Source of the DNA: a virus
Direction: 5' to 3' (one strand)
Virus record (IMG/VR): IMGVR_UViG_3300011261_000079
Location: 1 to 35,423 of that record
Length of the DNA stretch: 35,423 bases
The notes under the pieces: generated by a model
The model's database searches: none
What the model saw: the letters and a program-made list of their open reading frames with translations, nothing else
What the model was told of the DNA's origin: nothing
Shown here: positions 8,786 through 11,884 of the stretch, piece after piece
Numbering within the stretch: position 1 is the first letter of the stretch
How the letters are laid out: each line of letters opens with the position of its first letter
Translations under genes and position numbers: made by a program

Positions 8786-9279
8786 CGTCTTGTGTTGTTT
8801 ATTTGAGTGGTTATCATATCATCTAATCGTGTTATCAAATTTGAAATCGGTATTGAATCTTTCGATATTCTTTTTTTATCGTCTTCAGACAGTGACATGA
8901 ATTGCGAAACTTCGTCTGATTCATCATTTTCCTCGCGCTGAACGATTTTAATCCAGTCAGTTTCAATTTCCTTTGACTTGAATATCGATAACGTGTTTAG
9001 TTCGTTGTATGCAATTAAGATATTGTCGTAAAATATTTGAAGTGGTTGTTTCAATATATTTCGAATGTGCTTGTAAGTCGCTGTCGTGTCTTTGTATCTG
9101 AGCAAATTACCTTCGTACAAATATAAAAATAATTTAGCAAATGCAATATTATCGTATTGTTTTTCTCGTTCTTGATAATTTAAATCTTCAATGATTTTAT
9201 TCAATGCAGCAATTTGAGCTTCTGATTTCATTGATTTAGCAAGAAATTGAATTGCGAATTTTGAAGTATGAAATTTCAT
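8782..9279 (-). CDS. Hypothetical protein, candidate helicase loader, 165 aa
   Basis: The protein is mostly helical and is not recognised. It has an N-terminal region KFAIQFLAKSMKSEAQIAAL, a YLYEGNLLRYKDTTATYKHI segment and a charged C-terminus with many D and E. It overlaps the initiator gene and the helicase-like gene by 4 nt on each side, so its stoichiometry is probably coupled to both. In many phages this slot holds a loader or a DnaC/P-like adaptor. That is context inference only, as I see no AAA+ motif. Confidence 0.6.
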   Translation of the reverse strand: MKFHTSKFAIQFLAKSMKSEAQIAALNKIIEDLNYQEREKQYDNIAFAKLFLYLYEGNLLRYKDTTATYKHIRNILKQPLQIFYDNILIAYNELNTLSIFKSKEIETDWIKIVQREENDESDEVSQFMSLSEDDKKRISKDSIPISNLITRLDDMITTQINNTRR

Positions 9280-9917
9280 AATTTACCTTTTTGAGTGTCC
9301 ATGATTCGTTTTTTGTTCCATGTTTTTAATCTGCGATTGATGTCGAATGATGTTTGCTTTTCGAATCTCATTTTTTTATCACGAGGCCCAGCTTCAGTCC
9401 AATATTCTGCAAATTCATTCAACATCGCAGAAGGATATTTAACATCATTTTCAATTAAACAGTTTTTAATATCATCGATAAATGTTTTTTTCCTTTCGCC
9501 TATAGTAATACTTGTATTACTCTTGTTTAATGGTTTAGTTGTTGCTATCCGTTTGTCTTTGGATTGTTTTCTGCTTGCTTTCCTTAATTCAAGATCTTGA
9601 TATTCGTCATATTTTACAACTGTTATAATCGAAAATCTGTTTGAGGAGGTGGTAACAATTTCGCCAGTCGATTTTAAATTCGAAATTCGTTTTCTTAATT
9701 GAGGTATTGTCATATTAGTTGCTGCAGATAAATTGTTCAATGATGTGACAATCTGACCTCGTTTGATTGTTTGTCCTCGCCATTGTTTATCTTCCCAATT
9801 AACCGTCAAAATTAAATGAATGAATAATTTGATTGATAGTGCGTCATCGTACCATTCCCAGTTAGTAAATGCACGATACAAAACAATGAAGCCCATTTTG
9901 GTTGTTTCTTCGCTCAT
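9276..9917 (-). CDS. Replication initiator with winged-helix N-terminus (DnaD/O-like)
   Basis: The N-terminal ~110 residues have the common phage replication-protein pattern: MGFIVLYRAFTNWEWYDD, then VNWEDKQWRGQTIKRGQIVT, then a winged helix (LNNLSAATNMTIPQLRKRIS and LKSTGEIVTTSSNRFSIITV). A basic low-complexity linker follows (ASRKQSKDKRIATTK, near residues 114-128). The C-terminal segment FAEYWTEAGPRDKKMRFEKQ, then RRLKTWNKKR, is shared with many phage initiators and may bind the helicase or single-stranded DNA. The linker DNA contains the inverted repeat and the 23-bp sequence that recur at 31191-31243, so the gene may carry an origin inside it, as in lambda O. Confidence 0.75.
   Translation of the reverse strand: MSEETTKMGFIVLYRAFTNWEWYDDALSIKLFIHLILTVNWEDKQWRGQTIKRGQIVTSLNNLSAATNMTIPQLRKRISNLKSTGEIVTTSSNRFSIITVVKYDEYQDLELRKASRKQSKDKRIATTKPLNKSNTSITIGERKKTFIDDIKNCLIENDVKYPSAMLNEFAEYWTEAGPRDKKMRFEKQTSFDINRRLKTWNKKRIMDTQKGKL
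9504..9555. repeat. Inverted repeat plus 23-bp sequence shared with the intergenic iteron site
   Basis: AGTAATAC-TT-GTATTACT (9504-9521) is a perfect 8-2-8 inverted repeat. Eleven bases later, 9533-9555 is identical over 23 bp to 31221-31243. The second locus has its own perfect 8-2-8 inverted repeat with the same TT centre and the same 'cctata' edge, and only a 2-nt length difference between repeat and identity. This copy is coding and encodes the initiator's linker. It is a candidate initiator-binding site or origin. Confidence 0.6.
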
Positions 9918-10137: not shown

Positions 10138-10289
10138 TAGAATAGGAATTGTTGGTTATCAGTTACAATTTGCGATGCATGAAAGGTCGTTTTTATCATG
10201 CATTCGATTCGATCTCCATCTTGTTTTTCAAAGATTGCTTCAATCACTTTTCCACCTGATGAAAAGTGAATTACGTCACCGCGTTTCAT
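10137..10289 (-). CDS. Hypothetical protein, 50 aa
   Basis: This frame begins MKRGDVIHFSSGGKVIEAIF and is beta-rich (EKQDGDRIECMIKTTF), like a small SH3-type barrel or a KOW-like fold. Both ends overlap neighbours by one base (TAATG), which strongly supports coupled translation in the replication operon. No known family is recognised. Confidence 0.6.
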   Translation of the reverse strand: MKRGDVIHFSSGGKVIEAIFEKQDGDRIECMIKTTFHASQIVTDNQQFLF

Positions 10290-11467
10290 TAAAATAATGT
10301 CATTTGATTCTGAGCAACGTGCTTAAATGCATCTGCATTGAATGTCACAATATCAGTTGATTGATCTGAAGCATCGCCAATATATTTATACGATTTAGTT
10401 ATTGCATTTCGCATTTTCAACATTCCTCCTTTGTCTGATGATTGTTGTTTTTCCATCCATTCAGAATTTAATTGTTCTTTTTTAACTTGATTCGTCAATT
10501 TCCATCGATGTTCATTTTTTTTCATTGCACCGAATAATGCTGGATTTGATGTTTTAATGTACATATTTTTATTGTCAGCTTTGTACAATGCGCCAAAATA
10601 ATCGATGATTTGAAATCCAATACCCAAGCCTTGATAATCAGGTAAAACTACAACTCGTGAAATACGATATCCATTTTCAATGTTGCCATGAGGAAAAGGT
10701 AAAATTGCAATAAATCCAACTGGTTTGTCGTTCATTATCCAAACAAAACATTTTGCTGCCTTGTTTAGGTCCTGACTCATATAATGACTTGATTTGAATA
10801 TATTCCAAGTTTCATATCGACATCGAAATATCTGAAGTTCAATTTTTGGCCTTGATTGCCGAAGACATGACGCTCTCTCAAGACGCCCTTTAATCGGTGA
10901 ATATGTCCAATCCGGTTGTAACCATTCCATTATATCGAAATGACATGATGCAAGAACGATCTTCTTTTTTTCACGTCTTATGTATTTTTGCAATGCATTG
11001 CTCATCGCCTTTGCAACATCTCGATCTACGACAGATGTAAACTCATCGATTAAAATAACTTCGCCTATTTTCGCCTTACCGACTTTGTATGCAAGTGCAG
11101 CTCGATATTGTTCTCCGTTCGATAATAATGCAAAAGGTCGCAACCATGTAGGAACAGCGGATAAACCCATTGCAGATAATAAAAATGTTGCTTCTTTCGG
11201 TGTCATCCAGTCGAAATTCGATATCAAAGGTTTTTTATCATCGAATTGATCTTCAGTCAATGACCCAAATTCTTTCAACAATGTAGTTTTTCCTGTACCA
11301 GATCCACCGTAAATAACTCCGATATTCCATTCAAACGTTTTCGCCTCACCAAAATTAATAGGTATTTTAACTGACGTTTCGTCTTTGTTTTGAATGTCAA
11401 ATGCTTCATAAACATATTCTGTATATTCGTCATTTATTATTTTATTTGTTCGTTCAATGTATTTCAT
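10289..11467 (-). CDS. ABC-type ATPase fused to GNAT acetyltransferase
   Basis: This is a 392-aa two-domain protein. Residues ~45-190 form an ABC ATPase: Walker A GGSGTGKTT (about 54-62), signature LLSNGEQ (about 114-120, where classical ABC proteins have LSGGQ), Walker B EVILIDE (136-142) with its catalytic glutamate, and an H-loop ASCHFD (His about 176). There are no membrane segments, so it is not a transporter but resembles soluble ABC ATPases of DNA or translation metabolism. Residues ~205-345 are a GNAT fold: strands FVWIMNDKPVGFIAILPF, then VVVLPDYQGLGIG (about 272-284), the acetyl-CoA pyrophosphate-binding loop. It lies in the replication operon between a DnaA-like protein and the initiator. 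A DNA- or protein-modification role (for example Mom-like chemistry) is speculation. Confidence 0.8.
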   Translation of the reverse strand: MKYIERTNKIINDEYTEYVYEAFDIQNKDETSVKIPINFGEAKTFEWNIGVIYGGSGTGKTTLLKEFGSLTEDQFDDKKPLISNFDWMTPKEATFLLSAMGLSAVPTWLRPFALLSNGEQYRAALAYKVGKAKIGEVILIDEFTSVVDRDVAKAMSNALQKYIRREKKKIVLASCHFDIMEWLQPDWTYSPIKGRLERASCLRQSRPKIELQIFRCRYETWNIFKSSHYMSQDLNKAAKCFVWIMNDKPVGFIAILPFPHGNIENGYRISRVVVLPDYQGLGIGFQIIDYFGALYKADNKNMYIKTSNPALFGAMKKNEHRWKLTNQVKKEQLNSEWMEKQQSSDKGGMLKMRNAITKSYKYIGDASDQSTDIVTFNADAFKHVAQNQMTLF

Positions 11468-11470
11468 GAT

Positions 11471-11884
11471 TTATACAATTTTATGTTCTTCGTTTGCATT
11501 AATTTTATATCTGTATGGATTTGCACAAGTATCTCTCAATGTGCCAGTTTTCATCATTGTTAATCGTCTTGAATCGTATTTCAAACGTGAAACTGTATTC
11601 TTGTAAATCCAAAATTGAACTTGATTTGGCGCGTCCACTTCAGCGTCAAATTCATACAATCCATGAATGATTGAAGAATGATCTCTGTTGATGTAAAATG
11701 CACATTCGGCTAACCTGAAATCATCGCCTAACATTTCTCTCGTGATTCCCATATAAACATTTCGTGCTTTAACGGCAAGTTGCGCTCGTGATTCGGTGCT
11801 CAAATCGAGGATCCTGCACTCTTGTTCAAGTGCAGTTTTAACCTCGATAAATACATGAGCATGATTGATTGATTCGCGTCTCAT
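11471..11884 (-). CDS. DnaA domain IV-like DNA-binding protein
   Basis: The 137-aa protein contains a stretch matching the C-terminal DNA-binding domain of DnaA: AVKARNVYMGITREMLG (about residues 37-53), AECAFYINRDHSSIIHGL (about 59-76). NRDHSSIIHG corresponds to the DnaA signature GRDHTTVLHA that contacts the DnaA box. There is no AAA+ domain, so it cannot itself melt DNA; it could mark an origin or compete with host DnaA. It sits 3 nt upstream of the ABC-GNAT gene in the replication operon. I found no clear DnaA boxes by eye, so its site is unknown. Confidence 0.75.
   Translation of the reverse strand: MRRESINHAHVFIEVKTALEQECRILDLSTESRAQLAVKARNVYMGITREMLGDDFRLAECAFYINRDHSSIIHGLYEFDAEVDAPNQVQFWIYKNTVSRLKYDSRRLTMMKTGTLRDTCANPYRYKINANEEHKIV

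Follow-up and report, generated by a model that had tools for sequence, protein, structure and literature searches.

A phage ABC ATPase-GNAT fusion protein as a probable DNA-modification enzyme that may stand in for Mom

Proteins that join an ABC ATPase to a GNAT acetyltransferase domain (ABC-GNAT) are probably phage DNA-modification enzymes, in the form of ATP-gated acyltransferases acting on base amines of phage DNA. Support for this reading comes from an exchange with mom at one locus, from a ParB partner common to Mom and ABC-GNAT, from genes that directly follow that of ABC-GNAT, from a fold match to TmcA, and from an independent prediction (PMC7824862). The member of the family described here is encoded by a 35.4-kb virus record, all 35,423 nucleotides of which were analyzed and are called the window below. 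Its open reading frame lies on the minus strand (10289-11467; PHROG 11143), begins with ATG and specifies 392 amino acids. The ABC-GNAT architecture is not new, and the window protein is a conserved member of a family predicted earlier; the new element is what genome comparison adds, namely the exchange with Mom and the genes that accompany ABC-GNAT.

Residues 1-200 form the ABC ATPase domain (10868-11467, minus strand, as for all parts of the protein given here). It contains a Walker A motif, GGSGTGKT, at residues 54-61 (11285-11308), the ABC signature LSNGEQ at residues 115-120 (11108-11125), a Walker B motif, VILIDE, with the catalytic glutamate at residues 137-142 (11042-11059), a D-loop, SVVD, at residues 145-148, and the H-loop histidine H176 (10940-10942). 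In an alignment of 106 sequences, residues G54, S56, G57, G59 and K60 of Walker A, L115, S116 and G118 of the signature, D141 and E142 of Walker B, and H176 are invariant; the canonical glutamine of the Q-loop is not conserved. Pfam ABC_tran is sub-threshold in the window protein alone (E 0.0065) and matches 106 of the 106 family members, and the assignment is backed by NCBIfam ABC models and by PHROG 293 (ABC). The GNAT domain covers about residues 205-365 (10373-10855) and is recognized by Pfam Acetyltransf_1, both in the whole protein (E 4e-9) and in the GNAT part alone (E 1.6e-9). Its family-wide N-terminal motif, F224..H228-Y229 (10781-10798), has an invariant F224 and Y229, with H228 kept in at least 90% of the sequences, while the acetyl-CoA pyrophosphate loop, PDYQGLGIG, at residues 276-284 (10616-10642) has P276, Q279 and G280 invariant among the 106. 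The motifs of the ABC domain and of the CoA loop remain invariant down to about 31% identity in this set.

An AlphaFold2 model built on the 106-sequence alignment has a pLDDT of 90.3. The model resembles ABC ATPases over residues 1-201 (Z up to 14.7, with rmsd 2.9 over 171) and GNATs over residues 207-365 (Z 13.8 to 1y9k, with rmsd 3.6 over 137). Profile searches and structure prediction thus find both domains present, and they bear out the first-pass annotation of the gene, which had described a complete soluble ABC ATPase fused to a GNAT domain with an acetyl-CoA loop. Its statement that no transmembrane parts are present is also confirmed, as the two soluble domains fill the 392 residues and no transmembrane partner or permease gene was seen among the Pfam-annotated neighbors. 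The protein was rejected as an ABC transporter ATPase for want of an associated transmembrane domain or permease. Gene-wide dN/dS is 0.085-0.136 in comparisons with five relatives, and purifying selection acts on both the ABC and the GNAT domains. Relative to Nonlabens phage P12024S and to the relative at locus L016, the GNAT part has a rate of change several times that of the ABC part, which is possibly a sign of changing specificity.

Full-length homology over both domains places the window protein in the ABC-GNAT phage family, since the whole protein matches phrog_11143 (E 5.8e-136, residues 3-369), a family labeled as being of unknown function. Its nearest relatives are encoded by marine phage contigs (79% identity), and the nearest among named phages is that of P12024S (66.8%). 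The homologue in Tenacibaculum phage pT24, QAX98348.1, is 54.6% identical over 83% of the protein; the pT24 gene (L085:6001-7173) has an in-frame TGA inside its GNAT part, for which sequencing error, decay and recoding are candidate causes, and it is annotated as two genes. The family has members in 64 phage records and also in numerous prophages, among them those of Planctomycetes, Actinomycetes and Proteobacteria. COG2401 is an archaeal ABC-acetyltransferase fusion, of which no mention was found in the literature searched. Membership of a known defense system was rejected, there being only weak partial PADLOC matches, to the ATPase.

The pT24 homologue has been named as a previously predicted ABC-GNAT system for acyl modification of DNA bases (PMC7824862), and the prediction is attributed there to an earlier study (Iyer et al., 2013, as cited in PMC7824862). 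The idea of DNA modification put forward in the first-pass annotation is therefore a published prediction. Its remark that the function of this architecture is unknown holds with regard to experiment; as a predicted system, in contrast, the family had already been described (PMC7824862). Neither an experimental report of base acetylation in phage DNA nor a test of the ABC-GNAT prediction was found in the literature searched.

The window gene lies between two replication-type genes on the same strand, one for a protein resembling the C-terminal helix-turn-helix of DnaA (11471-11884; Bac_DnaA_C E 4e-6, below the Pfam cut-off) and one for a DnaD-like helicase loader (9276-9917; phrog_2514 E 1.7e-20). 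The DnaA-like and initiator-type neighbors noted at first pass are thus weakly borne out, and both genes are context that is probably outside the system. Gene neighborhoods were compared in three sets, namely 82 loci of the window clade, genome and phage loci of other clades, and a clade with a formyltransferase-fold partner. Among the 82 window-clade loci, the replication genes (DnaB/Toprim, DnaD-like, DnaA-C-like and ERF) are found at 9-15 offsets on either side of ABC-GNAT, with the DnaA-C-like gene at 15 different offsets and the DnaD-like gene at 12. In other clades, ABC-GNAT adjoins the terminase or sits at a Mu-like right end. A functional link to the neighboring replication genes was rejected on account of their scattered offsets, and the survey does not sustain the significance that had been attached to the location in a replication operon. 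A NinG/HNH-type nuclease gene (window:12871-13266) is also common in these phages, at varied positions.

Directly downstream of ABC-GNAT, the 82 window-clade loci have a restricted set of partners. When present, DUF3850/ASCH genes are always at +1/+2 (17/17 occurrences) and often overlap ABC-GNAT, and the same placement is found for a putative PD-(D/E)XK family, cluster 7 (21/21), for PDDEXK_14 (7/7), for a PDDEXK_9-like family (9/10), and for cluster 32, a small unannotated family present in P12024S (7/7). These are the only conserved directly downstream partners in the clade, and 90-100% of their occurrences are at +1/+2, compared with 0-33% for the replication genes. At least one DUF3850/ASCH or PD-(D/E)XK gene follows directly in 41 of the 82 loci, and in 16 of 37 after removal of copies more than 90% identical. 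Given the fixed downstream partners and the scattered replication genes, ABC-GNAT heads a portable cassette, for which the replication context is incidental. No DUF3850 or nuclease gene lies beside the window's own ABC-GNAT. Cluster 7 is probably a PD-(D/E)XK nuclease: it has invariant D32, D34 and D48-H49-K50, and its model (pLDDT 88) has Hjc, RecU and restriction nucleases as best fold matches, with Z at most 7.4 and a Foldseek E of 0.1 that is not significant.

Other branches of the family have an upstream partner. A gene with a ParB_N domain directly precedes ABC-GNAT in 53 of 80 genome loci and in 21 of 30 phage and Firmicutes loci, as a rule immediately ahead of the terminase. The tree places the window in a clade of 55 rows (SH-aLRT 99), none of which has an adjacent ParB, whereas such a gene is present in 42 of 60 rows in the main other branch; no ParB-profile match was found anywhere in the window. 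An adjacent ParB was thus taken as a common trait of the family and not as a strict criterion of membership. At one locus of the window clade (L059:6260-7387), a ParB_N domain is joined to an N6/N4 DNA methylase in the vicinity of ABC-GNAT, which is another link between this ParB family and DNA modification.

A third type of partner is a formyltransferase-fold gene that overlaps the 3' end of ABC-GNAT in 7 of 7 loci of one clade, comprising Porphyromonas, Dysgonomonas, Prevotella, Pseudomonas Komp, Novosphingobium, Aquaspirillum and Gordonia BiggityBass (partners at L088:6032-6505, L089:6035-6652, L004:1823-2473, L286:6005-6505 and L262:6053-6652, among others). Classical formyltransferases have an asparagine two residues before the histidine; the partner keeps HPS(L/P)LP and a later aspartate and seems to be without that asparagine. 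The BiggityBass copy is annotated as a tRNA-methyltransferase.

The exchange with Mom was found among Mu-like phages of Porphyromonas. The mom gene of Mu is a proven DNA-modification gene. At the right end, after the last tail gene, four of the Porphyromonas phages (BK068093-96) have a Mom homologue, and five (BK068089-92 and PP754929) have ABC-GNAT with the formyltransferase-fold gene. None of the phages compared has both cassettes, and PP754930 has neither. Between BK068093 (Mom) and BK068092 (ABC-GNAT), identity is 87% across the 4659-bp left flank and 81% across the final 91 bp, and the cassette alone differs (Mom, L296:5897-6710; ABC-GNAT with the formyltransferase-fold gene, L088:4646-6582). 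The paper describing these phages makes no mention of the exchange. In addition, Microbacterium phage Appa has a ParB-domain gene directly upstream of mom and overlapping it, whose product matches the ABC-GNAT ParB profile (E 1.4e-29). The swap and the common ParB partner are the strongest indications of a Mom-like job, DNA protection, for ABC-GNAT. The Mu-like right end may, on the other hand, be a general cargo slot, open to any cargo. Aeromonas phage PX29 (L380 and L087) carries a Mom homologue and ABC-GNAT far apart in one large genome, and the two therefore need not exclude each other everywhere.

In a profile-profile comparison, the GNAT domain was closest to RimI (E 2.7e-7) among the three families tested and remote from Mom (E 0.29, probability 0.2%); with so few families, and profiles of 10 sequences for RimI and only 2 for TmcA, this comparison ranks few candidates. 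Membership of the Mom family (PF25680) was rejected on that profile score, the window protein having no Pfam Mom match, and two relatives gave weak Pfam Mom matches (E 0.035-0.16). At the start of the GNAT fold, HY(L) is conserved where Mom has HY(S), and the best local alignment pairs the two without being significant. The GNAT domain thus looks like an ordinary RimI-like one by sequence, and the link with Mom drawn at first pass appears to hold for function, through the swap at one locus, and not for kinship.

TmcA, a tRNA cytidine acetyltransferase, and Kre33 and NAT10 are ATPase-GNAT enzymes that acetylate the N4 of cytosine in RNA. In a Foldseek search of the PDB with the whole protein, the best match was TmcA (2zpa, E 1.5e-8), and two chains of 5jpq, a 90S pre-ribosome entry, which we take to be Kre33/NAT10, were at ranks 5 and 7. 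TmcA is ranked first because the ATPase-then-GNAT order is the same; as the TM-score is only 0.25, the pair of domains does not superpose as a rigid unit, and the match is an ordered two-domain one. Membership of the TmcA/NAT10 family was rejected, as GNAT_acetyltr_2 gave 15.7-17.9 bits against a cut-off of 24.6 (E 0.0022 for the GNAT part alone) and the ATPase is of the ABC type with LSNGEQ. The likeness to TmcA may therefore serve as a working analogy and does not amount to membership.

In Streptococcus, Lactococcus P335, Oenococcus, Enterococcus 9184 and Thomasclavelia phages, ABC and GNAT are encoded in two overlapping frames. The shift between the frames is always -1, and the end of the ABC frame falls within the HY motif, which is out of frame there. 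For the Streptococcus-type, P335 and Oenococcus sequences, no ATG, GTG or TTG precedes the HY motif in the GNAT frame, so that a whole GNAT domain would require either ribosomal frameshifting by -1 or a start of an unusual kind. A programmed -1 frameshift is the probable means of joining the two domains in the Streptococcus, Lactococcus and Oenococcus phages (probable frameshift overlaps at L001:6444-6546, L003:6447-6549, L095:4561-4663, L399:1806-1911, L400:1941-2043, L109:2578-2683 and L111:3067-3178). Streptococcus and P335 have kept the heptamer GTTTTTC in the overlap; it is not found in Oenococcus. A AAA AAG, a canonical slippery heptamer, occurs in the overlap of Enterococcus phage 9184 (L092:5279-5414), whose GNAT frame also has ATG codons of its own; the GNAT part of this phage is annotated as a DNA polymerase. 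The arrangement of frames suggests that the fusion of ABC with GNAT is functionally required.

Rad50, SMC and MutS are non-transporter ABC ATPases and offer an analogy for a gate that clamps DNA or presents a base. In the mechanism that we infer, which extends to the DNA substrate, the base, the acyl group, the use of ATP and the anti-restriction role, an ATP-bound ABC dimer would clamp DNA, or distort it, and present a base to the fused GNAT. This domain would then take an acyl group, acetyl or another, from acyl-CoA and attach it to the N4 of cytosine or the N6 of adenine, both of them exocyclic amines, and ATP hydrolysis would reset the enzyme. The resulting mark may protect replicating phage DNA against host nucleases, and the linked nucleases might attack unmarked DNA. 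Loading or guidance of the enzyme might fall to the ParB-like proteins. The ASCH protein YqfB hydrolyzes N4-acetylcytidine, and DUF3850/ASCH proteins might read or remove the mark.

Should the substrate be a protein, ABC-GNAT might serve in host takeover like Rac of phage phiKMV, which acts on RNA polymerase, with the ABC domain as a regulatory or targeting module. Phage GNATs acting on RNA polymerase are known (PMC7824862), and RimI, the closest of the three families, is a protein N-acetyltransferase. Such a role is nevertheless unlikely in view of the mom swap, the ParB partner shared with Mom, and the neighboring nucleases and PUA-like DUF3850/ASCH proteins, and an ATP-driven ABC domain of the DNA type would be unnecessary for acetylating protein. 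Acetylation of tRNA or mRNA bases in the manner of TmcA/NAT10, for instance to ac4C on phage or host RNA, would agree with TmcA as the top fold match with the same domain order, with the weak GNAT_acetyltr_2 match and, given the activity of YqfB, with the DUF3850/ASCH neighbors. We regard it as improbable, as no RNA-binding domain was seen in the protein and its genomic partners are of the DNA type (ParB, PD-(D/E)XK nuclease and a terminase-adjacent position in prophages).

Although many GNATs use small molecules and one clade has the formyltransferase-fold partner, it is very improbable that ABC-GNAT acylates a small molecule, such as an antibiotic or a host metabolite, or free nucleotides of the dNTP pool; such a role leaves the ABC domain and the ParB and nuclease partners unaccounted for, and no nucleotide-biosynthesis operon surrounds the gene. 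That ABC-GNAT modifies or remodels the adjacent phage initiator or helicase loader can hardly be expected, for the position of the window gene between the DnaA-C-like and DnaD-like genes gives way in relatives to 9-15 offsets on both sides, and in other clades to the terminase or the Mu-like right end. Among the targets listed in the first-pass annotation, which were DNA, a replication protein and a host defense factor, DNA is the best supported, by the Mom swap and the published prediction. Counting against modification of DNA are a GNAT nearest to RimI and not to Mom, the possibly general nature of the right-end slot, the P-loop domain of TmcA, which is helicase-like and not of the ABC type, the low TM-score of the match to it, and the lack of adjacent partners in the window.

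Returning to DNA modification, a fuller proposal is advanced tentatively, as one somewhat less likely than not to be correct. ABC-GNAT would place a mark not seen before in DNA, an acetyl, glycyl or formyl-glycyl group, on an exocyclic amine of a base by ATP-gated acyl transfer, as a DNA counterpart of TmcA, and would replace Mom functionally; clade-specific partners, namely the formyltransferase fold, DUF3850/ASCH, PD-(D/E)XK nucleases and ParB-like NTPases, would finish, read or enforce the mark. To our knowledge, ATP-driven base acylation is known only for RNA, in TmcA/NAT10. If the prediction of DNA modification is right, an uncharacterized modification made by an ATP-driven acyltransferase is present in hundreds of phages and prophages from many bacterial phyla. 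This would mean one more system against restriction, possibly a new modified nucleoside, and enzymes that acylate bases. The Mom swap offers a direct and cheap test, because the sister phages differ almost only in the cassette at that locus.

Among related systems, the GNAT protein of Leptospira phages LE3 and LE4 has a full-length BFVD fold match to the window protein (E 3.6e-33, TM 0.77-0.82) at 35% identity; a ParB gene directly adjoins theirs, whereas the window is without ParB, and the authors placed that protein under replication (PMC6078989). The predicted system of the pT24 type has the same two domains and no membrane part, and the window clade differs from it in being without the ParB neighbor common elsewhere and in often having DUF3850 or PD-(D/E)XK genes. 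RimI and other canonical GNATs are stand-alone and do not have an ABC domain. Mu Mom (PF25680) is likewise a GNAT, has an HY motif at the start of the fold that may correspond to that of ABC-GNAT, occupies the locus of ABC-GNAT in sister Porphyromonas phages and can have the same ParB partner, but it has neither an ATPase nor the canonical QxxGxG loop. TmcA, Kre33 and NAT10 resemble ABC-GNAT in having an ATPase followed by a GNAT and are its top PDB fold matches, and they differ in their P-loop helicase-type rather than ABC-type ATPase, their RNA substrate and their extra domains.
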